DNA of 42,218 nucleotides. Origin: Candidatus Zixiibacteriota bacterium. Lineage in GTDB: Bacteria > Zixibacteria > MSB-5A5 > JAABVY01 > JAHJOQ01. The translations under genes and the position numbers were made by a program. Shown piece after piece: positions 6,740 through 20,280 of this stretch. The stretch lies in the NCBI GenBank assembly GCA_020053015.1, contig JAGVNY010000221.1:1-42218 (forward strand). Direction: 5' to 3'. The notes beneath the pieces are model-generated. The model did no database searches. It was not told where the DNA came from and was given only the letters and a program-made list of their open reading frames with translations. Each line of letters begins with the position of its first letter. Position 1 is the stretch's first letter.

Positions 6740-8092
6740 ATGAAGAATAAGCCAACCCATATGAACTCCCGACTCCGTCGTCTCATCTCGGACTATGGAA
6801 TGCTGGGTGTGCTGCTCTTGCTATGCGTATTGTTCTCGATCCTTACGGTCACGGAACAATACCCGACCGGAGCTGAGGGTGCACGGATGCTGTTCGATGA
6901 TGTCATGTCAAAGACTCCGCCAACTACACCCATAATCACGATTACACCAGCGACCGAAGCCGACAGCGCATTTTCTATCGCACTTCATGAACGCCTGACC
7001 GCTTCCGGTTTCCGGAAGTCGCTAATCATCGCTGGGGACCCGCAGGCGGTCCGAAACAGTCTGACCCAACTGGCTGACTCTGTTACAGGCTCCACTATTA
7101 TCGCAACGACAGATGCATTCGCGCCGATCGTGACGTCGATCAAGCAGCAGATCCCGTCAATTGGATCAGCCCCGGTCGTAACGCCTCCCTCCTATCAGTG
7201 GCCGACATTTCTTCTCCCAGATAACCTGAGGAATGTAGCCAACCAGATTTCGGTGATTGCGATCATCGCAATTGGTATGACTATGGTCATCATAACAGCA
7301 GGCATCGATTTGTCGGTCGGCAGTCTGGTTGCGCTGTGTGCCGTGCTTGTGGCTTGGATTATCGGAAGACTCGGCGGGCAATCTGCTTCGACCAGCTCTA
7401 TGCTGGTAGCATGTATCACGAGCATGAGCATGTGCGCCTTGATTGGAGTATTCAGCGGACTGATGATCACACGCTTCCGAATTCCTCCGTTCATCGCGAC
7501 TCTTGCCATGATGCAGGTAGCAGCCGGACTCGCCTATATCATCTCTCAGGGCAAACCAATCTATCAGATTCCGGAGTCATTCGTCTGTCTGGGCAGAGGA
7601 ACCGATCCGCTGCTGAAGATTCCTGTAGCAGTCATTCTCATGGTTATTCTCTATGTGCTCGCCCACATCCTTATGACTCGTACCACGCTTGGTCGATACA
7701 TTTATGCTGTCGGTGGCAACGCCGAGGCCGCAAGACTCTCGGGAGTGCGAGTATCGAAGATAATACTGTTCGTTTACGCAGTCTCCGGCTTGATGGCAGG
7801 ACTTGGCGGCGTAGTGATGGCATCTCAACTGCGGAGTGGCGCGCCGACATACGGACTAACCTACGAGCTATATGTGATTGCTGCAGTCGTCGTGGGAGGA
7901 ACAAGCCTGAGCGGTGGCGAAGGGCGTATTCCGGGGACTCTTATCGGAGCATTCGTAATCGCAGTGATTCAAAACGGCATGAATTTGACAAATGTGGAAA
8001 GCTATACACAGAAAGTTGTGTTGGGATTGGTGATACTCGGAGCCGTGCTGCTCGACCAGCTCAAACAGCGAAGATTTCGGATGCTTTCCTGA
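6740..8092 (+). CDS. sugar ABC transporter permease (RbsC-like) with a large periplasmic insertion
   Basis: A 450-residue CUT2 permease; E. coli RbsC is about 320. The first membrane segment is at about 19-37 and the conserved family core starts near 168, with ITAGIDLSVGSLVAL at about 185-199 and VVVGGTSLSGGEGRIPGTLIGA near the end. Between them, residues about 41-165 form an extra segment that family members normally replace with a short loop. It is not hydrophobic, and the alternating strands and helices (PIITITP, KSLIIAG, STIIATT) suggest a small alpha/beta domain outside the membrane. The gene sits between the ATPase and mannosidase genes. No strong ribosome site precedes the ATG, but it directly starts the hydrophilic leader of segment one. 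Confidence 0.92.
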   Translation: MKNKPTHMNSRLRRLISDYGMLGVLLLLCVLFSILTVTEQYPTGAEGARMLFDDVMSKTPPTTPIITITPATEADSAFSIALHERLTASGFRKSLIIAGDPQAVRNSLTQLADSVTGSTIIATTDAFAPIVTSIKQQIPSIGSAPVVTPPSYQWPTFLLPDNLRNVANQISVIAIIAIGMTMVIITAGIDLSVGSLVALCAVLVAWIIGRLGGQSASTSSMLVACITSMSMCALIGVFSGLMITRFRIPPFIATLAMMQVAAGLAYIISQGKPIYQIPESFVCLGRGTDPLLKIPVAVILMVILYVLAHILMTRTTLGRYIYAVGGNAEAARLSGVRVSKIILFVYAVSGLMAGLGGVVMASQLRSGAPTYGLTYELYVIAAVVVGGTSLSGGEGRIPGTLIGAFVIAVIQNGMNLTNVESYTQKVVLGLVILGAVLLDQLKQRRFRMLS

Positions 8093-8133
8093 TGCTTGGA
8101 TCTGAAGGATCTTCTCGTAAGTTGGAGGTTGGT

Positions 8134-11100
8134 ATGTTAAGAAGGATCGCAAGTCTCACGGTCATGATTGCAGTGATGGTCTTTTGTTCGGCTTTGGGTC
8201 AGAATTCCACCGAGCAGCCGTCAGGTATACAACGCAAATTGCATGTCGTGGGCACGGCACACCTTGATACGCAGTGGCGATGGACTATCCAGCAGACAAT
8301 CAACGAGTTCGTTCCGAGTACTTTCCGCGACAACTTCAGGCTGATGGACATCTATCCGGACTATGTCTTCAGCTTCGAGGGAGCATTCAGATACATGCTG
8401 CTGCGCGAGTATTTCCCGGATCAATACGCGAAACTCTCAAAGTACGTATCATCCGGCCAGTGGCGTGTAGCAGGGAGCTGGGTGGATGCTGTAGATGTCA
8501 ACTTACCGTCGTTTGAGTCTCTCGTCAGAAATTGCCTGTACGGAAACGGATTCTTCAAGCAGGAGTTTGGCCAAACAAGTCGCGACATCTTCCTTCCAGA
8601 CTGCTTCGGGTTTGGGTATGCCCTTCCATCAATCGCCGCACACTGTGGGCTTAACAGCTTCTCCACGCAGAAGCTCTCATGGGGCTCAGCATATGGTGTC
8701 CCGTTCGATATCGGCGTCTGGCAGGGAGTGGACGGTTCATCCATCGTTGCTGGGCTCAATTCGAGCGACTACACGGGCAAGATCAGAACCGATCTAAGCA
8801 GAGACTCCGCGTGGACCGCGAGGGCGGATTCTCTCGGTCAAAGGTCCGGCTCCTATGTTGCCTACCGATACTTTGGAACCGGCGATACAGGTGGATCGCC
8901 CGATTCGCTTTCGGTCGATTGGCTTTCCAAATCGATACACAGCGACGGGCCGATGCAGATTATCAGTTCTCCTTCCGACACACTTGCGGACATGTTCACT
9001 GCCGATAAGCTTGCGAAGCTCCCGCACTATCGCGGCGAGCTCCTGATGACTCGGCACGGAGCTGGATGCTACACATCGCAGGCAGCCATGAAACGCTGGA
9101 ACCGCAAGAACGAACTGCTCGCTGATGCGACGGAGAGAGCATCGGTGATTGCTTCAGTCGTGGCGGGGTATGAGTACCCGACAGAGACGCTCCGCGATAC
9201 ATGGGTACGATTCTTGTGGCACCAGTTTCACGACGACCTGACCGGCACGAGCATTCCTGAAGCCTACGAGTTCTCATGGAACGACGAGATTCTATGCCAG
9301 AATCGTTTCGCGTCGATGCTTGAGGACGCTGTCGGAGCAACAACGGCGATGCTCGATACTCGCACTGAGGGCGTGCCGATAGTGGTTTTCAATCCGCTGT
9401 CGATTGACAGGACGGATGTGGTGGAAGCGACCGTGGATTTTGATGTTGGGAAAGACTCGTTCACATACATAAGGGTCGCCGGACCATCTGGGCCAGAAGT
9501 ACCTTCACAGATTCCTCCTGCTTCGCAACAGAGCTCAACTACACTATTTCGATATCCGCGCCACAGGGACAAACCTATCGGGGAAGATTATGTCCATTCA
9601 AAATCGGGGAAGGTCAAGGTGACTTTCGTCGCAACTGTTCCGGCCACCGGGTACGCTGTGTTTGATGTGCGGTCAGGTTTCCGCCCAACCGATAAGGTTT
9701 CTGAGCTCAGTGTAACTCCGCGCTTGCTGGAAAACACTCGCTACAAAGTCACGCTTGATGACAATGGAGATGTTGTATCGATCTTTGACGAAGAAGTAGG
9801 CCGTGAACTGCTCAGCGGCCCCATTCAATTCCAGTTGCTCTTCGACAAGCCTAAGCAATGGCCCGCGTGGGAGATCATGTATGACGATATCATGGCTAAG
9901 CCGCAAGCTGTACTCGGCGCTCCATCGAGTATCAAGGTTGTTGAGAACGGCCCAGCCCGAGCAGCTATTGAGATCATTCGCAGTCATGGGCATTCGAAAT
10001 TCCGTACCCGGATCAGCCTATCGAACGGCGATGGGCCTGTCGAATTCAAAAATACGATCGATTGGTACGAGAAGGAAACGCTGCTCAAAGTCGCCTTCCC
10101 GTTCGCATCGGCCAACGACAGCGTTACGTACGATCTCGGTCTCGGAACGATCAAGCGCGGCCCAAATCACGAGAAGCTGTACGAAGTCCCCGGACACCAG
10201 TGGGCAGACATGACTGCTGAGAACGGCGAATTCGGCGCCGCAGTCCTCAATGACTGCAAGTATGGTTGGGATCACCCTGAGAAGAATGTGCTGCGTCTGA
10301 CGCTGATTCACACTCCCGGCGTGTTTGAAAGCTGGGCTTGGGTCGGCGACCAGAGCTCTCAGGATATGGGAAGGCACGAGTTCACATTCGCAGTATGCGG
10401 CCACAAGGGCGACGTATCGCAGTCAGATGTCGCCTGGCAAGCCGCGCGTCTCAATCAGCCGTTACTCGCGTTTCAGGCGCCCAAACATGACGGCAAGCTT
10501 GGCAAGACCTGCTCGCTCCTGTCCGTGAGTTCTGACGATGTATTCGTGAACGCCGTGAAGAAATCGGAATCGAGTGATGACATTGTAGTCAGAGTGCGGG
10601 AATTAAGTGGTACCGGCGTTGACAACGCGAAAATCACATTTGCTAAATCGATATTATCTGCTCGCGAGATAAACGGATTCGAAGAGACCGTCGGCGATGC
10701 AGTGTTTCAGGGCAAGGAACTCACAGTGAGCCTGACTCCTTATCAACCCAAGGCGTTCGCTGTGAAGCTCCAGGAATCGGACTCTGACTTGCGGACCAAG
10801 ACGCAATTCGCATCGGTTTCACTTCCATTCGATCTGGATTGCATCAGCGGCGATGACAACCGCAAAGATGGTGACATCGACGGTCACGGCAACTGCCTGG
10901 TTGCGGAGTTGCTGCCGGACACTGTCTGGTTCAGAGGAGTCCCATTCGTCATTGGTCCGACCAATGCTGGTGCCAAGAACGCCGTGTCATGTACTGGCCA
11001 GGCTATTGACCTTCCGAAGGGAGAACACGATATACTGCATCTCCTTGCTTGCGCAGTTAACGGACCAACTCTGGGGAGATGCACCATCGGCGCAGAAACT

Positions 11101-12138
11101 CCAGTCTCTTTGCTCCAGGACTACTGCATTCCGCTCGGTCAATGGAACAATCGCATAAACTCCGGTAGATTCTCGGAGAACCCTGACGGAATCGCTCCCG
11201 CCTACGTCAACCGCCAGCCCGTAGCATGGTACGGCTCTCATCGCCACAGCCAAGGCGAAAACGAAGCATACAGATTCACATATCTCTACGATGTGCCTCT
11301 GAAGATACCGCAAGGCGCAACATCGCTGAGGTTGCCTATCAAACAGAACATCCGGGTATTCGCTGCAACTGTCGTCAAGTCGACAATTGATAACGTCACG
11401 CCTGCTCAGCCACTTTATGATGAGGCGGAGGCCGCAATCGCAATCGTGAACGTCGACAGCGTCGACTTTGCAGGTCACGCGACTATTTCAATGACCACTC
11501 CGAATCCCAGGGCGAATATCCGTTATGCGCTCGACGGCAAGGCTCCGGACCAAGGATCTCATCACTATGAGATGCCCTTCGCCATTGATTCATCCACCAC
11601 AATCAAGGCGCAGGCAATTCTCGCCGGAATAGACAGTAGTTTCGTAACCACTGTAACCTGCAGGAAGCTGATGCCGGTCGATGCTGTCCCGACTGTGGAG
11701 AGCGAACCGGGTTTGAACTGCACATACTACGAAGGGTCATGGTCGAAGCTGCCCGATTTCGATACAGTCAAAGCTGTGCGTCAGTTTGTGGCCGATCAGT
11801 GCGTCCTGCCGGAGTTCGCTCGGCAGGAAGACTTCGGGCTTGTGTTCTATGGTTTCTTCAATGCTCCGACCGAAGGCATGTACGAATTTATCATAAGCTC
11901 TGACGATGGCAGCCGCTTGTATATCGGTGATTCGCTTCTGATTGACAACGATGGTCTTCACGGATCGGGTGATATGACAGGCCATGTCGTGCTCAAGCCG
12001 GGGCTGCATCCCTTCACTCTGCGCATGTTTCAATGCAAAGGTGGACGAGATCTGAATGCATGGGTGTCAGGACCCGGCATCGTAAGAGAGCAGCTCGGAC
12101 CGACGAGGCTGTCGCATGCAACAACAGCAAACAGGTAG
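8134..12138 (+). CDS. secreted GH38 alpha-mannosidase with chitobiase-type and PA14 domains
   Basis: The frame is open much further upstream, inside the permease gene, but GGAGG at 8124-8128 stands six bases before the ATG at 8134. From there the protein has a clear signal peptide (residues 1-22), giving 1334 residues. The GH38 catalytic domain has the zinc motif TAHLDTQW (H43, D45), VDVN with D121 as likely nucleophile and zinc ligand, DCFGFGYALPS near 156-166, and RHGAGCYTSQAAMKRWNR near 308. These enzymes hydrolyse alpha-mannosyl bonds with retention. Residues about 1110-1170 resemble the C-terminal domain of hexosaminidases (IRYALDGKAPD), and about 1190-1320 form a PA14 domain (YEFIISSDDGSRLYIGD), which often binds glycans. 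It follows the importer by 41 bases and probably feeds it. Confidence 0.93.
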   Translation: MLRRIASLTVMIAVMVFCSALGQNSTEQPSGIQRKLHVVGTAHLDTQWRWTIQQTINEFVPSTFRDNFRLMDIYPDYVFSFEGAFRYMLLREYFPDQYAKLSKYVSSGQWRVAGSWVDAVDVNLPSFESLVRNCLYGNGFFKQEFGQTSRDIFLPDCFGFGYALPSIAAHCGLNSFSTQKLSWGSAYGVPFDIGVWQGVDGSSIVAGLNSSDYTGKIRTDLSRDSAWTARADSLGQRSGSYVAYRYFGTGDTGGSPDSLSVDWLSKSIHSDGPMQIISSPSDTLADMFTADKLAKLPHYRGELLMTRHGAGCYTSQAAMKRWNRKNELLADATERASVIASVVAGYEYPTETLRDTWVRFLWHQFHDDLTGTSIPEAYEFSWNDEILCQNRFASMLEDAVGATTAMLDTRTEGVPIVVFNPLSIDRTDVVEATVDFDVGKDSFTYIRVAGPSGPEVPSQIPPASQQSSTTLFRYPRHRDKPIGEDYVHSKSGKVKVTFVATVPATGYAVFDVRSGFRPTDKVSELSVTPRLLENTRYKVTLDDNGDVVSIFDEEVGRELLSGPIQFQLLFDKPKQWPAWEIMYDDIMAKPQAVLGAPSSIKVVENGPARAAIEIIRSHGHSKFRTRISLSNGDGPVEFKNTIDWYEKETLLKVAFPFASANDSVTYDLGLGTIKRGPNHEKLYEVPGHQWADMTAENGEFGAAVLNDCKYGWDHPEKNVLRLTLIHTPGVFESWAWVGDQSSQDMGRHEFTFAVCGHKGDVSQSDVAWQAARLNQPLLAFQAPKHDGKLGKTCSLLSVSSDDVFVNAVKKSESSDDIVVRVRELSGTGVDNAKITFAKSILSAREINGFEETVGDAVFQGKELTVSLTPYQPKAFAVKLQESDSDLRTKTQFASVSLPFDLDCISGDDNRKDGDIDGHGNCLVAELLPDTVWFRGVPFVIGPTNAGAKNAVSCTGQAIDLPKGEHDILHLLACAVNGPTLGRCTIGAETPVSLLQDYCIPLGQWNNRINSGRFSENPDGIAPAYVNRQPVAWYGSHRHSQGENEAYRFTYLYDVPLKIPQGATSLRLPIKQNIRVFAATVVKSTIDNVTPAQPLYDEAEAAIAIVNVDSVDFAGHATISMTTPNPRANIRYALDGKAPDQGSHHYEMPFAIDSSTTIKAQAILAGIDSSFVTTVTCRKLMPVDAVPTVESEPGLNCTYYEGSWSKLPDFDTVKAVRQFVADQCVLPEFARQEDFGLVFYGFFNAPTEGMYEFIISSDDGSRLYIGDSLLIDNDGLHGSGDMTGHVVLKPGLHPFTLRMFQCKGGRDLNAWVSGPGIVREQLGPTRLSHATTANR

Positions 12139-12522: not shown

Positions 12523-12727
12523 TTCGACCTCCGAATCCTACTATTAATCCCTGTTCACAACCGGCATGTCAAGCCAGAAATCCAAGGCAGAATGAGGGAC
12601 TCATACTCGGTTTGTCCCCACTTGACAGGTTCTCAGTTTCGCGTTTGGAGATCACGCACACCCTCGTACTATCAAGCGCGACACACACTTACATGACTAT
12701 GAGTCTCCGCCCCGAAATGGCTGATTT

Positions 12728-12750
12728 GGCTGTTCAGACTGTGAACAGCC
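12728..12750. promoter_or_regulatory. perfect 9-bp inverted repeat, candidate operator
   Basis: GGCTGTTCA and TGAACAGCC are exact reverse complements separated by five bases. No T-run follows on either strand, so a terminator is unlikely. The size and symmetry fit a dimeric regulator site, but which protein binds is unknown. Confidence 0.45.
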
Positions 12751-12780
12751 AGGTTCAATAAGCTCATACTGGCACGAGAG

Positions 12781-12821: not shown

Positions 12822-12942
12822 TTCGGGCGATTTATCCGTCCTCGTAACTTTTTTAACCCCAATGAGAACATTTTGGGAACTTTTATGTTGACTGTTACGT
12901 CAAATCTGACGATATAGTCGGAAATGACTGGTTAGTCGGCTG

Positions 12943-13659
12943 ATGATTGGAGGATACTTAAGAAGAACAATGGAGCAGCAGACACCAAAATCGAAACGCA
13001 AACGTGGTCGTCAGCAGCGACGGACAAATATTACAAGGCAGAAATTGCTCGATGCAGCGAAAACGGTCTTCTCCGAAAGAGGGCTTGATCTTACCCGAAT
13101 TGATGAGATTACGGAACGGGCTGACGTTGGGAAGGGGACATTCTACTACCACTTCCGAAGCAAGGAAAAGCTCATAAAGGAATTGATAAAGGGAATGTTG
13201 GGCGAACTTGTGGCAGTGATAGATGAGAAGTGTGAAGGCATCAACGATCTCACTGCGCTGATGGACACACTCATCCAAGTGCACACCGAGTTCTTTAGCA
13301 ATCGCTGGGAGGATTTCGTCCTTTTCTTCCAGGGAAGAGCTGACCTCACGCTACAGGTGAGTTACTCAGGCATCGACACGCCGTTTGTGGATTATATCGA
13401 GAGAATGGAGTCACTTCTCGACTCGGTGATCGAACACAGAATATCCAAGCCTGCGCTGCGAAGGATCGCATGTGCAGTGGCCGGATTTCTCTCCGGATAC
13501 TACTCGTTTGCAGTGATCTCGCCTCAGGGCGAGGATATCGACGAAACATTCCGTTCGTTACGGGGCGCCATGGTGGCAAGCCTTGTGCGCTTCATAAAGG
13601 AAACTGCGCCATCAGCGGAGGCCATTGGAAATGTAGAAAACAATACTTCTGTCAATTGA
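12943..13659 (+). CDS. TetR/AcrR family transcriptional regulator
   Basis: A 238-residue regulator. After a basic leader (KSKRKRGRQQRR) comes a TetR helix-turn-helix domain: LDAAKTVFSERGLDLTRID, then ADVGKGTFYYHFRSKEKL, the recognition-helix signature. The rest is a helical ligand-binding domain without recognisable relatives. The start is uncertain: the ATG at 12943 has no ribosome site, and an in-frame ATG at 12970 has AAGAAG four bases before it and GGAGG further away. It lies 69 bases before the SpeD-like gene in the same direction and probably controls that cluster, whose MFS transporter is the type of gene TetR proteins often repress. Confidence 0.92.
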   Translation: MIGGYLRRTMEQQTPKSKRKRGRQQRRTNITRQKLLDAAKTVFSERGLDLTRIDEITERADVGKGTFYYHFRSKEKLIKELIKGMLGELVAVIDEKCEGINDLTALMDTLIQVHTEFFSNRWEDFVLFFQGRADLTLQVSYSGIDTPFVDYIERMESLLDSVIEHRISKPALRRIACAVAGFLSGYYSFAVISPQGEDIDETFRSLRGAMVASLVRFIKETAPSAEAIGNVENNTSVN

Positions 13660-13728
13660 CCGGATAACGGCAACGCGCAAGGAGGCGCGATTACAATTGA
13701 GTCTGATAATGACATTTCGGAGGCCAAA

Positions 13729-14118
13729 GTGCAAACTCAGAGTATTGTGGAACAAGCGGTGAAACAGTCGGTCTGGGGTATTGCGTCCAGCATCGACATA
13801 TACAACTGCGATCCAGACACAATCCGCGATGCGGAGAAGATTAAGCAGTTCGTTGTCGAGCTTTGTGAGCTAATTCAGATGCGGAGATTCGGCGACACGT
13901 TGGTGGTCAATTTCGGCGAAGACGAAAGAGTCGCCGGGTATTCGATGGTTCAGCTGATTGAAACATCTCTGATTTCCGCTCATTTTGCAAACCTTTCCAA
14001 CACTGTGTACCTCGATGTGTTCAGCTGCAAACCTTACGACCCGGACATCGTCGAGGAGTTCGCAAGGAAATACTTTGCCGGATCGCACAGCATCGTGCAG
14101 GTGAACATGAGGCACTGA
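13729..14118 (+). CDS. SpeD-like (S-adenosylmethionine decarboxylase family) pyruvoyl enzyme
   Basis: A 129-residue homologue of the SpeD proenzyme. WGIASSIDIYNCDP matches the first strand of the family. S80, H85 and C100 keep exactly the spacing of S63, H68 and C83 in the Thermotoga enzyme: the serine that becomes the pyruvoyl group, a catalytic histidine, and the catalytic cysteine in YLDVFSC. The residue before the serine is T79, where glutamate is usual. Family members decarboxylate S-adenosylmethionine, and some divergent ones decarboxylate ornithine or arginine instead; no spermidine synthase gene is nearby, so the substrate is open. The GTG start has an ideal GGAGG five bases upstream. 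It opens a tight gene run with an acyltransferase, a ligase, a PLP decarboxylase and an exporter. Confidence 0.8.
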   Translation: MQTQSIVEQAVKQSVWGIASSIDIYNCDPDTIRDAEKIKQFVVELCELIQMRRFGDTLVVNFGEDERVAGYSMVQLIETSLISAHFANLSNTVYLDVFSCKPYDPDIVEEFARKYFAGSHSIVQVNMRH

Positions 14119-14121
14119 CCG

Positions 14122-15087
14122 ATGCTGAGTGCACGTGCCGTGACCGACATCGAGGAAGGTCGGGCTCTCTGGCGGCGTCTGATTCCCGAGGAAGTGATCA
14201 CGGACATCTGGGATGTCCGCGAGTGTTTTCATCGCCACTATCAGAGAGACATCCACTTCCTGGTTACCGAGGACAACGGCGTCGTAAGAGGATTCCTCCC
14301 CTTGGCTCGTATAGACGAGTACAGCTGTTACGGTTACTTCCCCGGCGAGACATGGAGCGGAAAAACATGGCTTGAGCAAAACCGTGTCATCATCGACGGT
14401 GACACGATGCTTGACGAAATTCTCGCCATGTGTCCGGGGCCGTATCATGTGCGCTATCTGCTCGCTGCCGATGCAGCTCCGCAGTCATCGGACTGTGTCG
14501 ACGAAATCGGTTACCTCTTCCACCCTCCTGACTACGATTATGAATTGGACGAGTATTTCAGGGAGTTTTCTCACAAGACCTTAAAGCGCCTGCGCAGGGA
14601 ACTCGACGGCTTTCATGCTTCTGGCGCAAGCTACCGCTATGACGATCTCGCAGATTTCGACATCCTCGTCAGCATGAATCTCGACCGATTCGGCGGCAGA
14701 TCTTACTTCGCGGATAGCCGTTTTCGCGAAGGATTTCGCAGCCTGATGCTCTTCCTGCATGAACGAGGCTGGTTGCGTATGACAACCGTGTTGATGAACG
14801 GCGATCCCGCAGCAGTAGACATGGGATCTGTATTCAACGGGACATACACGCTGCTGGCGGGAGGCACAAACGCGTCCTATCCCGGAGTAGCAAAACTCAT
14901 TAACATCCATCACATGCGACGGGCCTGCGAGTGGAAGCTCGGTTCAGTTGACTTTCTCTGCGGGGACTTTGCCTGGAAACCGCAGTTTCATCTATCGCCG
15001 CGCCCTCTGTACTTGATCTCCAATCTTCCGCCGGGTTTTCTGCAGTCAGGAAAGGTCGAGATCAGGAGCGCCCAGAATGCTCCATAG
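14122..15087 (+). CDS. GNAT-fold acyltransferase, BioF2/FemAB-like
   Basis: A 321-residue protein with no signal or membrane segment. The pattern FSHKTLKRLRRELDGF followed by NLDRFGG and FRSLMLFLHERGWLRMT, then YTLLAGGTNASYPGVAKLI, is that of double GNAT-fold proteins (Acetyltransf_6, FemAB/BioF2-like). These move an acyl or aminoacyl group to an amine. The donor and acceptor here are unknown; a product of the neighbouring decarboxylases is a plausible acceptor (inference). It begins 3 bases after the SpeD-like gene and overlaps the ATP-grasp gene by 11 bases, indicating joint translation. GAGG stands nine bases before the ATG. Confidence 0.75.
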   Translation: MLSARAVTDIEEGRALWRRLIPEEVITDIWDVRECFHRHYQRDIHFLVTEDNGVVRGFLPLARIDEYSCYGYFPGETWSGKTWLEQNRVIIDGDTMLDEILAMCPGPYHVRYLLAADAAPQSSDCVDEIGYLFHPPDYDYELDEYFREFSHKTLKRLRRELDGFHASGASYRYDDLADFDILVSMNLDRFGGRSYFADSRFREGFRSLMLFLHERGWLRMTTVLMNGDPAAVDMGSVFNGTYTLLAGGTNASYPGVAKLINIHHMRRACEWKLGSVDFLCGDFAWKPQFHLSPRPLYLISNLPPGFLQSGKVEIRSAQNAP

Positions 15088-16366
15088 CCGCGTCCTGGTC
15101 GTCGGCACTACGTCAGATTACATCGACATCATCTACAGCCGCCACCGAGACAGAGCATTCTTCGTAACTGACACGGCTGAACGCAACCAGGCAACCGAGC
15201 AAGCGCCGCCGACTGAGTCGGAGCTGGTCTGTGACTTGTCTTCGATTGGCGAAACGCTCTCATCGCTTCGAAACAGTCTCAGCCAAGCTCTGATTCGTCC
15301 CAGCGGCGTAGCCTGCTTCGACTGCGAATCAATGCCGCTTGCTGCCCTTATCGCATCTGATTTAGGGCTTTCTTATCCAAGTCCGGAAACGATAAACATG
15401 GTCCGCAACAAGTACCTTACCAAATCGACTTGGACGGCGAAGGGAGTCCCGTGTCCCGATTGCACAATCGTGCGAACCGAGTCAGAAGCGATCGACTTCT
15501 TCCGGCTGAAGAGCAAGCCTATTGTCCTCAAGCCGCTGACCGGAAGCGGAAGTGAATTCGTAAGCTTGTGCAGGAATGAGCTCGAGTGCTCGGAGTCTAT
15601 TCGCAGCATGGCCGCAGGACTCGCATCTCACCCCAACATCAGGATGTATCCTGTCCAGCCTGATCGTCTCGGTGGGGGCATTCCAAGGAAGGAATTTCTC
15701 GCGGAGGAATTCATCGACGGGAGAGAATATAGTTGCGATTTTGTGATTGACGGCAATCGCATCAAGGTTATCCGCATTGCACAGAAGATTCGATTCGTTG
15801 ACAAACCGTTTGGAACGACGACAGGGTATCTTCTCCCCTCCCCGTTGCCGCCGACCATTTCACTTGAAGCGTTTGAAGAGACAATTCATGCAGCCGCGCG
15901 CGCGCTCAACATAGACCGCGCAATCTGTATGTTGGATTTCATGGTATCGTCCGGCGGGCTTTCGCTCATCGAGCTTACGCCGCGCCCTGGCGGCGATTGC
16001 TTACCCCCACTGATGCTCCATAGCTCAGGATTCGATATGCTTGGCTTCGCTCTTGACTTTGCAGAAGGGGGCAACTCGCCAATCCCGCCTCCGCGAAATT
16101 GGAAGCAGCTCATAGGGCTGCGCATAATTGCGACTCGCTCGGGTGTCATCCAACGGTTAGACATGGAAAGGGCCGCACTTGACCCGCGCGTTCTTGAGTG
16201 CGATATCAGACACGAGGTTGGAGATCGAGTTTGCATTGCAGGAGCTTCGTACGACTCCCGAATTCTCGGGCACATCATATTCCGTCCGAGCGACAAGAGC
16301 GATATTGAACAACAATGCGAGGAGATCGAGTCGCTGCTTGATCTCAATCTGGAGTATGATCTATGA
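15077..16366 (+). CDS. ATP-grasp ligase, likely carboxylate-amine type
   Basis: A 429-residue ATP-grasp enzyme. The N-terminal pre-ATP domain runs to about residue 110. KPIVLKPLTGSGSEFV (147-162) holds the ATP-binding lysine and glycine loop, EEFIDGREYS (210-219) is the central strand and hinge, and LSLIELTPRPGGD (295-307) carries the metal-binding acidic residues. Enzymes of this fold activate a carboxylate as acyl phosphate and join it to an amine, as in L-amino acid ligases and many small peptide pathways. Lying between an acyltransferase and an amino-acid decarboxylase, it could form an amide bond in the cluster's product. AGGAG eight bases upstream supports the ATG; the stop overlaps the next start by 4 bases. 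Confidence 0.85.
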   Translation: MLHSRVLVVGTTSDYIDIIYSRHRDRAFFVTDTAERNQATEQAPPTESELVCDLSSIGETLSSLRNSLSQALIRPSGVACFDCESMPLAALIASDLGLSYPSPETINMVRNKYLTKSTWTAKGVPCPDCTIVRTESEAIDFFRLKSKPIVLKPLTGSGSEFVSLCRNELECSESIRSMAAGLASHPNIRMYPVQPDRLGGGIPRKEFLAEEFIDGREYSCDFVIDGNRIKVIRIAQKIRFVDKPFGTTTGYLLPSPLPPTISLEAFEETIHAAARALNIDRAICMLDFMVSSGGLSLIELTPRPGGDCLPPLMLHSSGFDMLGFALDFAEGGNSPIPPPRNWKQLIGLRIIATRSGVIQRLDMERAALDPRVLECDIRHEVGDRVCIAGASYDSRILGHIIFRPSDKSDIEQQCEEIESLLDLNLEYDL

Positions 16367-17700
16367 ACGACCTCGAAAAATCGTTTCGGAAGGCAACTGA
16401 CATTCTTGCAAGGCCGTCACCAGCGCTTGATGACAGACTTCTTGCCGATGCAGTCTCCGCTTTCAATGACAGGTCAGGCCTGTTTCGAGGCCTTTGTAAG
16501 CAGTTCGGCTCACCTCTATATGTTATTGAAGAAGACGTGCTGGTTGAGAGAGCTCACCGGTTCATAAAGTCATTCAGGGCAAACAGCATTGACATAAATG
16601 CGTTCTACGCCGTCAAGTGCAACAACCATCCGACGATCGTGCGGATACTCGTCAAAGCTGGGATGGGACTTGATGTGTCGAGCGGAGATGAACTGAGATT
16701 GGCTCTCAACTGCAACGCCAAGCGCATCATCTTCAGCGGACCTGGCAAAACAATCGACGAGCTAGAGCTCGCGATTGCTCATCGGGACAGGGTCACTGTG
16801 CTTGTGGACAGCTTTTCCGAATTGGATCGCCTGGCAAGTGCGGCTTCCGCATCTGGCGTTACCATCCGATGTGGAGTCCGCGTATGCGTAGATGATCGCG
16901 GTCTGTGGCGGAAGTTCGGAATTCCGCTCGCCAATCTCGAACGATTTCTCGTCAGCGCTTCATCGCTAAGCTCGGTAAGACTCTCGGGCATCCAGTTCCA
17001 CACGAGCTGGAACATGAATCCATCAAATCAGACAGCGTTTATCGCGCGTCTCGGGTCGGTTCTGAAAGACATTGACACTTCCCTTCGATCGAGCATTGAA
17101 TTCATCGATATCGGAGGTGGCTATTGGCCGGAGCAGGGGGAGTGGCTTCAGCCCTCCGCGACTCCGGAAGGAACCATCAGAACAGCGATAGAGGGGCACG
17201 GAGCTCCATCCCTGAAGCATTATGCAATCCCGTCAGTCACAATTGAGCAATTCGCCAAGGAAATAAGCCTCGTTTTCGAGAAGCACATACTCCCTCACAA
17301 CAAGTGCGCCGTCTATGCAGAGCCGGGCAGATGGATCTGCCACCCCTGCGCGCATTATCTGCTGACAGTTATTGATCGAAAAGCGGATGACATTGTTATC
17401 ACTGATGGCGGAACAAATGCAGTCGGCTGGGAGCGGTTTGAGAGTGATTATTTCCCGGTGATCAATCTGTCTCAGCCGTCGCTAAGCGAGAAGTTGTGTT
17501 ATATCTTTGGATCGCTTTGCACACCTCACGACGTGTGGGGTTATTCGTATTTCGGAAATGACATTGCTCCCGGCGATGTTCTGCTCGTTCCGTTCCAGGG
17601 CGCGTACACATACAGCCTTCGTCAGCGGTTCATAAAGCCTATCCCTGCTTCTGTCCTGTTGCGGACGGACGGAAGCCATGAGGTCGTCTCTACGGACTAA
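16363..17700 (+). CDS. PLP-dependent amino acid decarboxylase, alanine-racemase fold
   Basis: A 445-residue fold-type III enzyme related to diaminopimelate and ornithine decarboxylases. FYAVKCN places the PLP lysine at K85; DVSSGDEL (104-111), KFGI (184-187), QFHTSWN (211-217), the phosphate-binding GGGYW (251-255), EPGRW (320-324), CTPHD with C386 and D390, and GAYTYS (413-418) follow in family order. Diaminopimelate decarboxylases usually read HIGS where this has HTSW, and the protein carries an extra N-terminal segment of about 40 residues. A role in lysine synthesis is therefore doubtful; another amino acid or a carboxylated amine is more likely. It overlaps the ATP-grasp gene by 4 bases. 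Confidence 0.85.
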   Translation: MNDLEKSFRKATDILARPSPALDDRLLADAVSAFNDRSGLFRGLCKQFGSPLYVIEEDVLVERAHRFIKSFRANSIDINAFYAVKCNNHPTIVRILVKAGMGLDVSSGDELRLALNCNAKRIIFSGPGKTIDELELAIAHRDRVTVLVDSFSELDRLASAASASGVTIRCGVRVCVDDRGLWRKFGIPLANLERFLVSASSLSSVRLSGIQFHTSWNMNPSNQTAFIARLGSVLKDIDTSLRSSIEFIDIGGGYWPEQGEWLQPSATPEGTIRTAIEGHGAPSLKHYAIPSVTIEQFAKEISLVFEKHILPHNKCAVYAEPGRWICHPCAHYLLTVIDRKADDIVITDGGTNAVGWERFESDYFPVINLSQPSLSEKLCYIFGSLCTPHDVWGYSYFGNDIAPGDVLLVPFQGAYTYSLRQRFIKPIPASVLLRTDGSHEVVSTD

Positions 17701-17734
17701 CGATGCAATGAGCAAGCCAGACGGACAATAGCAA

Positions 17735-19174
17735 ATGAGTGAGTCATCCGACATACCGCGCAATTCCCAGGTTGCACCCGTGGAATTAGCTCACTCAGTC
17801 CGCAGATGGCTGCCGATCATCTCCGTCGAAGGGGCTCTCGCAAATGTGTTCATCGTGCTCACAGGAGGCGCATTTCTTACGGGGCTTGCCTTGCACCTCG
17901 GAGCGAGCGACATGGAAATTGGACTGCTCGGTGCAATGCCTTTCCTCGCTCAATCCGCTCAGCTCATCTCGGCCTATCTCGTTGACAGGCTCGGAGAGCG
18001 CAAATCCCTGACTGTCATTGCATCAGTGATTGCACGACAAGTGTTCTGGCTGATGATACCGATCCTGTTCCTTCCCGGTTCTTGGCGGCTTTACGCCCTA
18101 CTCTCCGTCGTCACGATTTCTGGTATTGCCACTATGGTTGCCACCCCGAGCTGGCTTTCGTGGATGGTCGATCTTGTCCCCGACAGAATCCGCGGCCGAT
18201 ACTTCGGGAATCGAAGCGCAGCAATTGCGTTCACGACCGTAGCCGCGACACTCGCCGGTGGGATCATATTGGACAAATGCGGCGCGTTGGGCCAAGCCCA
18301 TCTGGGGTTCGCGGTAATCATCGGCATCGCATGCATCTGTGCACTGCTTGCAGTCATGCTGCTCAATCAGCTGCCTGAGACGGAAAGGCCACAGCGAATC
18401 GGCGTCAATCGCCGCATAATCATGGAGCCTCTGCGTGCTGACGGATTTCGAAGTCTCTTGCGCGTCACCTTTGCGTGGAATTTCGCGATCGGCACATCTG
18501 CGGTGTTCTTCGCCCCGCACATGATCACGAACCTTCAGATGAGCTTCACCCAGATTTCGCTATATCTCGTGGCATTCAATATCGCTGCGATAGCTCTCAA
18601 CAGACCATGGGGGATCTTGATCGATAGATTCGGCTCCAAACCAGTGCTTGTGATCTGCGCCTTCGGGATTTCGGTGATACCACTTATTTGGCTCTTTCCC
18701 CGTTCGGACTTTCTCTGGATTCTGACCATCGAGCCGGTCTATTCAGGGATGCTATGGGCAGGATTCAACCTGGCCGCATTCAACGTCCCGATTGCCAACA
18801 GCCCTCGCGAACGTCGAATCATCTACGTCGCCATGTTTGCGGTCGTTAGCGGTCTGGCGTTCTTCGGAGCATCGATCGCAGGTGGAGCGCTTGCGGAGAG
18901 ATGGGGTTTCGTGCAGTGGCACATCGGGCCGCAGACCATTGTTAACTACCACCTCCTGTTCATCCTGTCGAGCGCATTGCGCATTGTTTCATCCTTTTTG
19001 TTCATCACTTTTCGCGAGCCGGCGGAGCGACCACTCCCTGTGATGGTCCAGTTTATGGGCTACGCGATCCTCAAGCAGCTTTCTGCAGGTCTGCAGATTT
19101 TCCCATCAGGTATAAGGCGTTCTGAGGACGATAGAATCGACGACGACAGGACGGACAAGACACGAAATCACTAA
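17735..19174 (+). CDS. MFS transporter, probable product exporter
   Basis: A 479-residue membrane protein with about 12 hydrophobic segments. YLVDRLGERKSL in the loop between segments two and three and ILIDRFGSKPVL in the equivalent loop of the second half are the paired MFS loop motifs. The N-terminal tail is cytoplasmic and polar. It lies 34 bases after the PLP decarboxylase gene in the same direction. Coming last in a biosynthetic run under a TetR-type regulator, it may export the product, but import is not excluded. Only a weak ribosome site precedes the ATG. Confidence 0.88.
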   Translation: MSESSDIPRNSQVAPVELAHSVRRWLPIISVEGALANVFIVLTGGAFLTGLALHLGASDMEIGLLGAMPFLAQSAQLISAYLVDRLGERKSLTVIASVIARQVFWLMIPILFLPGSWRLYALLSVVTISGIATMVATPSWLSWMVDLVPDRIRGRYFGNRSAAIAFTTVAATLAGGIILDKCGALGQAHLGFAVIIGIACICALLAVMLLNQLPETERPQRIGVNRRIIMEPLRADGFRSLLRVTFAWNFAIGTSAVFFAPHMITNLQMSFTQISLYLVAFNIAAIALNRPWGILIDRFGSKPVLVICAFGISVIPLIWLFPRSDFLWILTIEPVYSGMLWAGFNLAAFNVPIANSPRERRIIYVAMFAVVSGLAFFGASIAGGALAERWGFVQWHIGPQTIVNYHLLFILSSALRIVSSFLFITFREPAERPLPVMVQFMGYAILKQLSAGLQIFPSGIRRSEDDRIDDDRTDKTRNH

Positions 19175-19197
19175 TCGGCGAAGGGAGGGATTGCGAG

Positions 19198-20280
19198 ATG
19201 AAGAGCGGAATCAGACGAGGCACGGCGAAGTCGGGTTTGAGGCCCGGTTCGATTCTGTACATCGGAAAGCCGAGGACCGAGAAACCTCGCATCCGAATCA
19301 TCGACTACTCGGAAACCGAATTGAAAGAGATCGAGGCGCAGTCTGCAACTAATTGTCTTCAATACAGGGATTCCCCGACGGTCACGTGGCTGCGCATTGA
19401 CGGTCTCCACGACACGACCCTTGTCGAGACAATCGGCACACACTATGGACTGCATCCTCTCGCTCTCGAAGACATAGTCAACACAGAGCACAGCCCAAAG
19501 TTCGAAGAGAGCGCCAAGTCGGTGCTGATCGTTCTCAAGTCGCTGTCATACAACTCGAGTCTCGCACGTGTGGAGACTCAGCATGTGGCTGTGGTGTTCG
19601 GAAGCAACTTCGTTATCACTTTCGCGGAACAGGACTGCAAACCATTCGATCACGTCTTGGATCGCATCAAGAATACGCCCCGGCGCAAGCGGCATATGGG
19701 GGCAGACTTTCTCGCTTATTCATTGATTGATTCCCTTATAGACGACTACTTCGTCACGCTCGAAGGACTGTCCGACGAGATCGAGGCCGTAGAAGAGAAG
19801 ATCATCGATCGCCCTCAGGCCCGAAACCTCGAAGCGATTCACGACCTTAAGGCATCGCTGATTACTATGCGACGAGCTTCTTGGCCTCTCAGGGATATCT
19901 TCTCCGAATTACGGCGCATCGAATCTCCTCTTCTGCATGACTACACGAGGCCGTACTTACGAGACCTCTACGAGCACATTAATCAGGTGCTGGACACAGT
20001 GGAGACGTTCCGCGAAATGGTCTCAGGCTTGCTGGAAGTGTACCTTTCGAGCGTCAGCATCAAGACGAACCAGGCGATGAAAGTGCTGACAGTTGTTGCG
20101 ACAATTTTCATCCCGCTCGGATTTCTTGCGGGCGTGTACGGGATGAATTTCAATACGAGCGTGAGCCCGTTCAACATGCCCGAGCTTTCGATGAAGTATG
20201 GTTACCTGATGTTCTGGGGAGTCTGCATTGCAGCGCTCGCAGGGATGCTGTGGTTCTTCCGCAAGCGTCAGTGGCTGTGA
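19198..20280 (+). CDS. corA: CorA family divalent metal transporter
   Basis: A 360-residue CorA-type channel for Mg2+, and in some members Co2+ or Ni2+. A long cytoplasmic alpha/beta and coiled region precedes two C-terminal membrane helices. The selectivity motif YGMNF (GMN at 315-317) lies at the end of the first helix, and the basic C-terminus RKRQWL follows the second. GGGAGG stands upstream of the ATG. It lies only 23 bases after the MFS gene, so it may belong to the same transcript; whether that reflects a metal link to the pathway is unknown. Confidence 0.95.
   Translation: MKSGIRRGTAKSGLRPGSILYIGKPRTEKPRIRIIDYSETELKEIEAQSATNCLQYRDSPTVTWLRIDGLHDTTLVETIGTHYGLHPLALEDIVNTEHSPKFEESAKSVLIVLKSLSYNSSLARVETQHVAVVFGSNFVITFAEQDCKPFDHVLDRIKNTPRRKRHMGADFLAYSLIDSLIDDYFVTLEGLSDEIEAVEEKIIDRPQARNLEAIHDLKASLITMRRASWPLRDIFSELRRIESPLLHDYTRPYLRDLYEHINQVLDTVETFREMVSGLLEVYLSSVSIKTNQAMKVLTVVATIFIPLGFLAGVYGMNFNTSVSPFNMPELSMKYGYLMFWGVCIAALAGMLWFFRKRQWL

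Follow-up and report, generated by a model that had tools for sequence, protein, structure and literature searches.

The window analysed here, 42,218 nucleotides (positions 1 to 42,218) of contig JAGVNY010000221.1 of a Candidatus Zixiibacteriota bacterium (assembly GCA_020053015.1), carries a conserved cassette of four enzyme genes, coding for a SpeD-like pyruvoyl enzyme of the SpeDC type (a predicted ornithine decarboxylase), a FemX-like GNAT transferase, an ATP-grasp ligase and a pyridoxal 5′-phosphate (PLP) decarboxylase. An earlier note, made from the letters of this DNA alone, had taken these genes for a candidate undescribed pathway in which a carboxylate-amine ligase stands beside two decarboxylases of unrelated type, and the comparisons described below support a real, conserved cassette of this composition which, so far as the literature searched goes, is apparently undescribed. 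We give about even chances to the block being a dedicated cassette, independent of non-ribosomal peptide synthetases (NRPS), for a small putrescine-amino acid amide, that is, a decarboxylated pseudopeptide.

Conservation of the four-gene cassette

With the ATP-grasp protein as the query, a search of GTDB genomes returned 36 loci from Planctomycetota, Nitrospirota, Thermodesulfobacteriota and two records classed as Myxococcota by taxonomy lookup; together with the loci of the window's phylum and those of Desulfobacterota, 52 loci were compared in total. The order SpeD-GNAT-ligase-PLP on one strand was kept in 45 of the 45 loci that have all four genes, and the other seven are without one or more cassette genes, most of them being cut by contig edges. 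The cassette is present in at least four named phyla besides the window's own, several uncultured groups being among its bearers, and cultured sulfate reducers that bear it comprise Desulfobacter, Desulfospira, Desulfocicer and Desulfamplus. Identity to the window proteins is 64-81% for SpeD, 36-58% for the GNAT, 32-48% for the ligase and 41-57% for the PLP enzyme.

Co-occurrence was examined in two surveys. Among 133 genomes of the window's phylum, the SpeD-like gene was found in 15, and the ligase was present in 14 of these 15 and in none of the 118 negatives (Fisher p 5e-18); in the positive genome without ligase (G063) the locus stops at a contig edge inside the GNAT gene. Among 395 Desulfobacterota genomes, SpeD (≥60% identity) was found in 18, the ligase in 14 and both in 13, the ligase occurring in 13/18 genomes with SpeD versus 1/377 without it (Fisher p 2e-19). 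Five genomes of this survey have SpeDC and no ligase, and G302, the sole such genome surveyed, has the GNAT, ligase and PLP genes along with a sigma-54 activator and no SpeDC. The neighbourhood from which the earlier note had argued is, then, conserved in relatives, in order and strand as well as in co-occurrence. In five Desulfobacterota genomes (L079-L083) SpeDC, 59-65% identical, stands alone and apart from any cassette, and several of these loci have common neighbours, which by eye are indolepyruvate oxidoreductase-like and tryptophan synthase beta-like.

The SpeD-like protein as a predicted SpeDC

SpeDC is a pyruvoyl-dependent L-ornithine decarboxylase derived from S-adenosylmethionine decarboxylase (AdoMetDC) (Li et al., 2023; PMC10407285). 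In the window's SpeD-like protein, Ser80 (the pyruvoyl residue), His85 and Cys100 are spaced like S63, H68 and C83 (T. maritima numbering), and Q75, T79, F86 and Y94 match, in the same order, the four diagnostic residues of SpeDC (Gln, Thr, Phe and Tyr), whose positions were deduced from the published text, not from its logo. The full Q/T/S/H/F/Y/C set is present in all cassette SpeD copies read; the four diagnostic residues are also present in the Desulfotignum fusion domain, and all of them are missing from canonical SpeDs. In the homologue of Sinorhizobium phage phiM12, whose relative from phage phiN3 is a true AdoMetDC (PMC9992855), D replaces the diagnostic Thr. The window protein shares 66% identity with the SpeDC half (C-terminal domain) of the Desulfotignum SpeD-SpeDC fusion, and the fusion of D. 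phosphitoxidans has proven ornithine decarboxylase (ODC) activity, dependent on its second serine (PMC10407285). In a tree, quickly built and of a short protein, the cassette SpeD-like proteins split from canonical SpeD with a support of 99 and the Desulfotignum fusion SpeDC was nested among them. Given the residues, the identity to the fusion half and the proven activity of the D. phosphitoxidans protein, there is a strong prediction that the SpeD-like enzyme converts ornithine to putrescine.

A canonical AdoMetDC was rejected: the protein scores 25.8 bits against a cut-off of 75.65 for TIGR03330, lacks the Pro of the WPE motif and stands apart in the tree, and no SpeE was found in its genome. 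The absence of SpeE, already remarked by the earlier note, was borne out by a PF17284 search, which did not find it anywhere in the window's 88%-complete genome. S-adenosylmethionine, which the same note had named as a substrate to assay, would be the wrong first choice, because the enzyme is of the SpeDC type by all available sequence tests. With known SpeDCs it shares the processing and diagnostic residues, the identity to the Desulfotignum fusion half and a single clade; the setting differs, since the known genes lie beside speD/speE, hss or casdh/casdc, whereas here the neighbours are a ligase, a FemX-like transferase and a second decarboxylase. Several sulfate reducers have both, the cassette and a separate SpeD-SpeDC fusion adjoining speE.

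A fold-III PLP decarboxylase with its own signature

The PLP enzyme retains Lys85, the Gly-rich phosphate loop and the EPGR motif, and it carries a signature made up of an invariant GWERFExDY and a GSLCTPHDVWG region. Trp356, Glu360 and Thr387, invariant in 33/33, replace the diaminopimelate-binding Arg, Tyr (RPALY) and Glu (CES), and Glu360 aligns with Asp332 of ODC when the DxG motifs are aligned gap-free. The roles given here to these positions are those of their counterparts in the solved enzymes. Since Glu360 falls on ODC Asp332, the alignment suggests that the substrate carries a distal positive charge.

None of the named decarboxylases that were tried could be assigned. LysA (TIGR01048) scored 143 versus 297.9 bits and its diaminopimelate-binding residues are replaced; the N-citrylornithine decarboxylase FslC (NF041039) scored 104 versus 500 bits, and no NRPS-independent siderophore (NIS) synthetase was found among the Pfam-scanned neighbours; NspC, SpeA and the exosortase-associated decarboxylase (TIGR03099) were all below cut-off. 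More generally, none of the SpeD-like, GNAT, ligase and PLP proteins reached the cut-off of any NCBIfam model. The enzyme is a fold-III decarboxylase of the DapDC family like FslC (rhizoferrin) and BtrK (butirosin), both of which act on conjugated amino acids, and BtrK shares the CTPxD motif with it; unlike them, it has its own GWERFExDY, and neither a NIS synthetase nor an acyl carrier protein was seen nearby. On lysine synthesis itself, PF02784 searches gave no obvious LysA in G000, G097, G124, G027, G064, G065 and G088, several of these genomes being 96-100% complete, and these members of the window's class may synthesise lysine by a different route or obtain it from outside.

Fold-level evidence for the GNAT and the ligase

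The AlphaFold2 model of the GNAT (predicted local distance difference test, pLDDT, 87.7) has a double-GNAT fold, and its top Foldseek matches were streptothricin-type aminoacyl-tRNA-dependent peptide synthases, FemX and aminoacyl-phosphatidylglycerol synthases. What the earlier note had called an acyltransferase (PF13480) is thus, by fold, most like FemX-type aminoacyl-tRNA-dependent transferases. The second domain has an invariant Trp285-Lys286, in which the Lys is a candidate for the catalytic residue that would correspond to Lys305 of FemX and Lys329 of DhpH-C (PMC12945691). FemX, Sba18 and Sbb17 share the double-GNAT fold as best Foldseek matches and differ in that identity is about 10-14%, the template modelling (TM) score is about 0.55-0.65, the cassette protein belongs to PF13480 and tandem GNATs dependent on coenzyme A (CoA) match too. 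By sequence, relatives were found neither in the PDB nor in plasmids.

The model of the ATP-grasp protein (pLDDT 90.4) had the L-amino acid ligase 3vot as the top Foldseek match (TM 0.75/0.81), with 4wd3 and 3vmm among the best, and a profile search also matched 3vot (2e-24). The protein folds like L-amino acid ligases, which favours the carboxylate-amine ligase predicted by the earlier note. The ATP-grasp fold is shared with BL00235, RizA and BacD at a TM of about 0.7-0.8; in contrast to them, identity is 14-18% and the C-terminal LAL_C2 domain stays below its cut-off (23 versus 29.4 bits). Relatives on plasmids reach 20-27% identity at most and their context was uninformative.

Predicted local control by TetR or sigma-54

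The loci of the window's class and those of Phycisphaerae have a TetR gene ahead of the cassette, and in 14 of the 14 window-phylum loci fetched a TetR 49-72% identical lies at the same position. The motif TGACGATATAGTC is found upstream of the cassette TetR, exactly in 10/18 TetR loci and with up to two mismatches in 14/18; at L004 the sequence is cut too near for the motif to be judged. It is the sole exact copy in the window, where 0.75 copies would be expected by chance even allowing two mismatches, and it occurs exactly once per whole genome, at the cassette, in G000, G097, G027, G065, G084 and G088. Thus TGACGATATAGTC is the probable, still putative, operator of the cassette TetR. A TetR regulon was sought as a clue to function: none of these six carrier genomes has a second exact site, and one-mismatch sites are 1.6 to 4.7 times as frequent as in a reversed-pattern control; because of this small excess and the lack of a second exact site, no regulon is named. 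At L006, upstream of tetR (start ~5879), the operator is repeated in a tandem array, three copies being exact and a fourth degenerate, with a spacing of 18 bases.

The place of TetR is taken by a divergent sigma-54 activator (PF00158) in Desulfobacterota, Nitrospirota, the Myxococcota-labelled records and Pirellulales. A -24/-12 site was present in the intergenic region of 22/24 activator loci, the background rate being 0.116 per kb per strand, and in 0/11 TetR loci. We infer operator and promoter function from these sequence patterns. In a tree of the three larger enzymes, a single branch with a support of 100 splits the TetR-type from the sigma-54-type loci, and since Planctomycetota members stand on both sides of it, the tree points to transfer of the cassette between phyla.

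Proposed pathway and alternatives

In the pathway that we propose, SpeDC would cleave itself at Ser80 and convert L-ornithine to putrescine, a step well supported by homology. The ATP-grasp ligase would activate the carboxylate of an amino acid as an acyl phosphate and couple it to an amine, and the FemX-like GNAT would attach a further aminoacyl, less likely an acyl, group, as the folds of both suggest. The PLP decarboxylase would strip the alpha-carboxyl from a basic amino acid or a conjugate, a role based on its residues and on family precedent, namely the N-citrylornithine decarboxylase of rhizoferrin synthesis. Control would be local, by TetR and its private operator where the locus belongs to the window's class and by the sigma-54 activator elsewhere, and export by the major facilitator superfamily (MFS) protein would be an optional add-on. 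In this scheme it is predicted that the amine is putrescine, that it forms an amide with amino acids and that the PLP enzyme acts as a decarboxylase, and the order of the steps and the physiological role are likewise predictions. The earlier note had an amine made, joined to an acid and exported; the enzymes fit the first two parts of this, at the strength of an inference, and export as a core part was dropped. A wider version, to which we allow somewhat less than an even chance, is that of a new and widespread class of putrescine pseudopeptides in anaerobic and uncultured bacteria, made independently of NRPS, with a neofunctionalised SpeDC, the ligase, an aminoacyl-tRNA-dependent FemX-like transferase and the PLP decarboxylase acting on one scaffold.

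Several points weigh against a dedicated putrescine-amide cassette. For three of the four enzymes, substrate and product are predicted at most, and the CoA-dependent tandem GNATs match the GNAT model with similar E-values. The SpeDC of L015 is truncated, as read by eye, and L078 is without SpeDC, so an intact SpeDC is no strict requirement of the block. Moreover, genome searches of the window's genome, G097 and G124 gave no other recognised putrescine source and no SpeE, canonical SpeD or ODC, and a deoxyhypusine-synthase/SpeY homologue is present in all three (outside the cassette in the window's genome). As the only putrescine source there, with the SpeY/deoxyhypusine-synthase homologue at hand, SpeDC may also feed homospermidine and is not provably dedicated in these genomes; the two uses, supply of the cassette and of homospermidine, can hold together.

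It is unlikely, in our estimate, that the product is an intracellular compatible solute or stress protectant. Most loci have no exporter, as this would lead one to expect, and four Desulfocicer/Desulfotignum loci have a mechanosensitive MscS channel gene beside the activator; MscS is, however, confined to this one family, and control by TetR or by sigma-54 is no specific sign of osmotic stress. We find it just as unlikely that the product is an exported bioactive metabolite, an antibiotic-like basic pseudopeptide or a metal chelator, with TetR and MFS providing self-protection. Of the 12 window-phylum loci that could be read far enough, 3 have an MFS gene after the PLP gene (the window itself and, with homologues of 48-51% identity, L071 and L072), each of them with TetR as well, and a distant homologue (26%) was found at the Pirellulales locus L025. 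The solved relatives of the PLP enzyme include the siderophore enzyme N-citrylornithine decarboxylase and BtrK of butirosin, and the GNAT model matches streptothricin-type peptide synthases. Against this, the other loci have no MFS, which makes export optional, and no NIS synthetase, Fur or TonB gene was found among the conserved neighbours scanned.

Polyamine housekeeping, in which SpeDC would do no more than feed putrescine into spermidine or homospermidine synthesis and its three cassette neighbours would belong to another route, seems to us distinctly unlikely. The gene content of the window's genome, G097 and G124 described above speaks for it, and in Leptospira a 58% identical SpeDC lies directly before speE. 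So does Desulfobacter latus (L052), in which the SpeDC half of the fusion is without the pyruvoyl Ser, a loss that has been noted before (PMC10407285), and the cassette SpeDC of the same genome is the intact one. In D. vibrioformis (L055) the fusion half has Arg for Gln and the cassette copy is intact, and in both genomes the latter may have assumed the putrescine supply. Housekeeping leaves unexplained, however, the fixed-order attachment of the GNAT, ligase and PLP genes, as well as the retention of the cassette SpeDC in G027, G064, G065 and G088, where a PLP ODC-type gene, SpeE and canonical SpeD are all present. Because genomes with such a set still retain it, we favour a SpeDC that serves the cassette. 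In G302, a PLP ornithine-type decarboxylase lies within a speD-speE operon and could be the source of putrescine.

Least probable, and to our mind very improbable, is a cassette whose product is a putrescine-containing tag placed on the cell envelope or on a protein, for which the FemX/MprF-like GNAT fold and neighbours in several loci could speak (a RimK-like ATP-grasp gene and then a GNAT-DUF3335/C39 peptidase fusion downstream at L005/L065, L070 and L074; C39-like proteins near L012 and L016 and, by eye, L011, L014, L022, L023 and L027), since these neighbours, like MscS, are not constant across loci and the four enzymes show no obvious membrane segment or signal by eye.

Gene content of the locus

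Every open reading frame (ORF) claimed by the earlier note was found in its place (Table 1), with gaps of 3 bases between SpeD and GNAT and 34 between PLP and MFS, and overlaps of 11 bases for GNAT/ATP-grasp and 4 for ATP-grasp/PLP. The Pfam classes (TetR, AdoMet_dc, Acetyltransf_6, ATP-grasp, Orn_Arg_deC_N/Orn_DAP_Arg_deC and MFS) agree with the class it had given to each gene. The SpeD-like gene has a GTG start preceded by GGAGGC. As for the interval as a whole, the ORFs hold, while its end at 20,280 is that of a CorA gene which had not been named; this is an ordinary magnesium transporter (TIGR00383 above cut-off), and it was rejected as a cassette member, being a neighbour solely in the window and in the same-family G097, outside the conserved block.

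Table 1. Features of the cassette locus in the window
Feature	Position	Strand	Evidence or remark
Probable operator of the cassette TetR, TGACGATATAGTC	12907..12919	+	Shared upstream motif of cassette TetR genes
TetR-family repressor	12943..13659	+	PF00440, 61 bits; heads the operon in the window's class
SpeDC-type pyruvoyl L-ornithine decarboxylase (predicted)	13729..14118	+	PF02675, 77.8 bits; TIGR03330 far below cut-off
FemX-like double-GNAT transferase	14122..15087	+	PF13480 (Acetyltransf_6), 75.7 bits
ATP-grasp ligase, L-amino-acid-ligase type	15077..16366	+	PF13535, 50 bits
Fold-III (alanine-racemase fold) PLP decarboxylase, own subfamily	16363..17700	+	PF02784, 111.7 bits
MFS transporter, optional accessory	17735..19174	+	PF07690, 110 bits

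Two further features were seen upstream in the window. An inverted repeat with 10-base arms, TGGCTGTTCAGACTGTGAACAGCCA, lies at 12727-12751, upstream of the operator, and is a possible terminator or second regulatory site. A large ORF at 7336-12138 resembles, by eye, a GH38-type alpha-mannosidase with extra C-terminal domains, and its listed GTG start seems too far upstream.

Novelty and significance

A literature search returned no paper on the cassette or on its combination of enzymes, an earlier bioinformatic mention being possible in a 2009 amidoligase survey. This survey of amidoligase gene neighbourhoods, reportedly by Iyer et al. in 2009, may list the neighbourhood.

With the cassette, SpeDC, which was reported in 2023 in polyamine operons, would gain a second setting outside classical polyamine synthesis. 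The exchange of TetR for sigma-54 control suggests that the lineages differ in the signals which induce one and the same chemistry, and the conservation of the predicted pathway in cultured sulfate reducers would make its product accessible to ordinary metabolomics.

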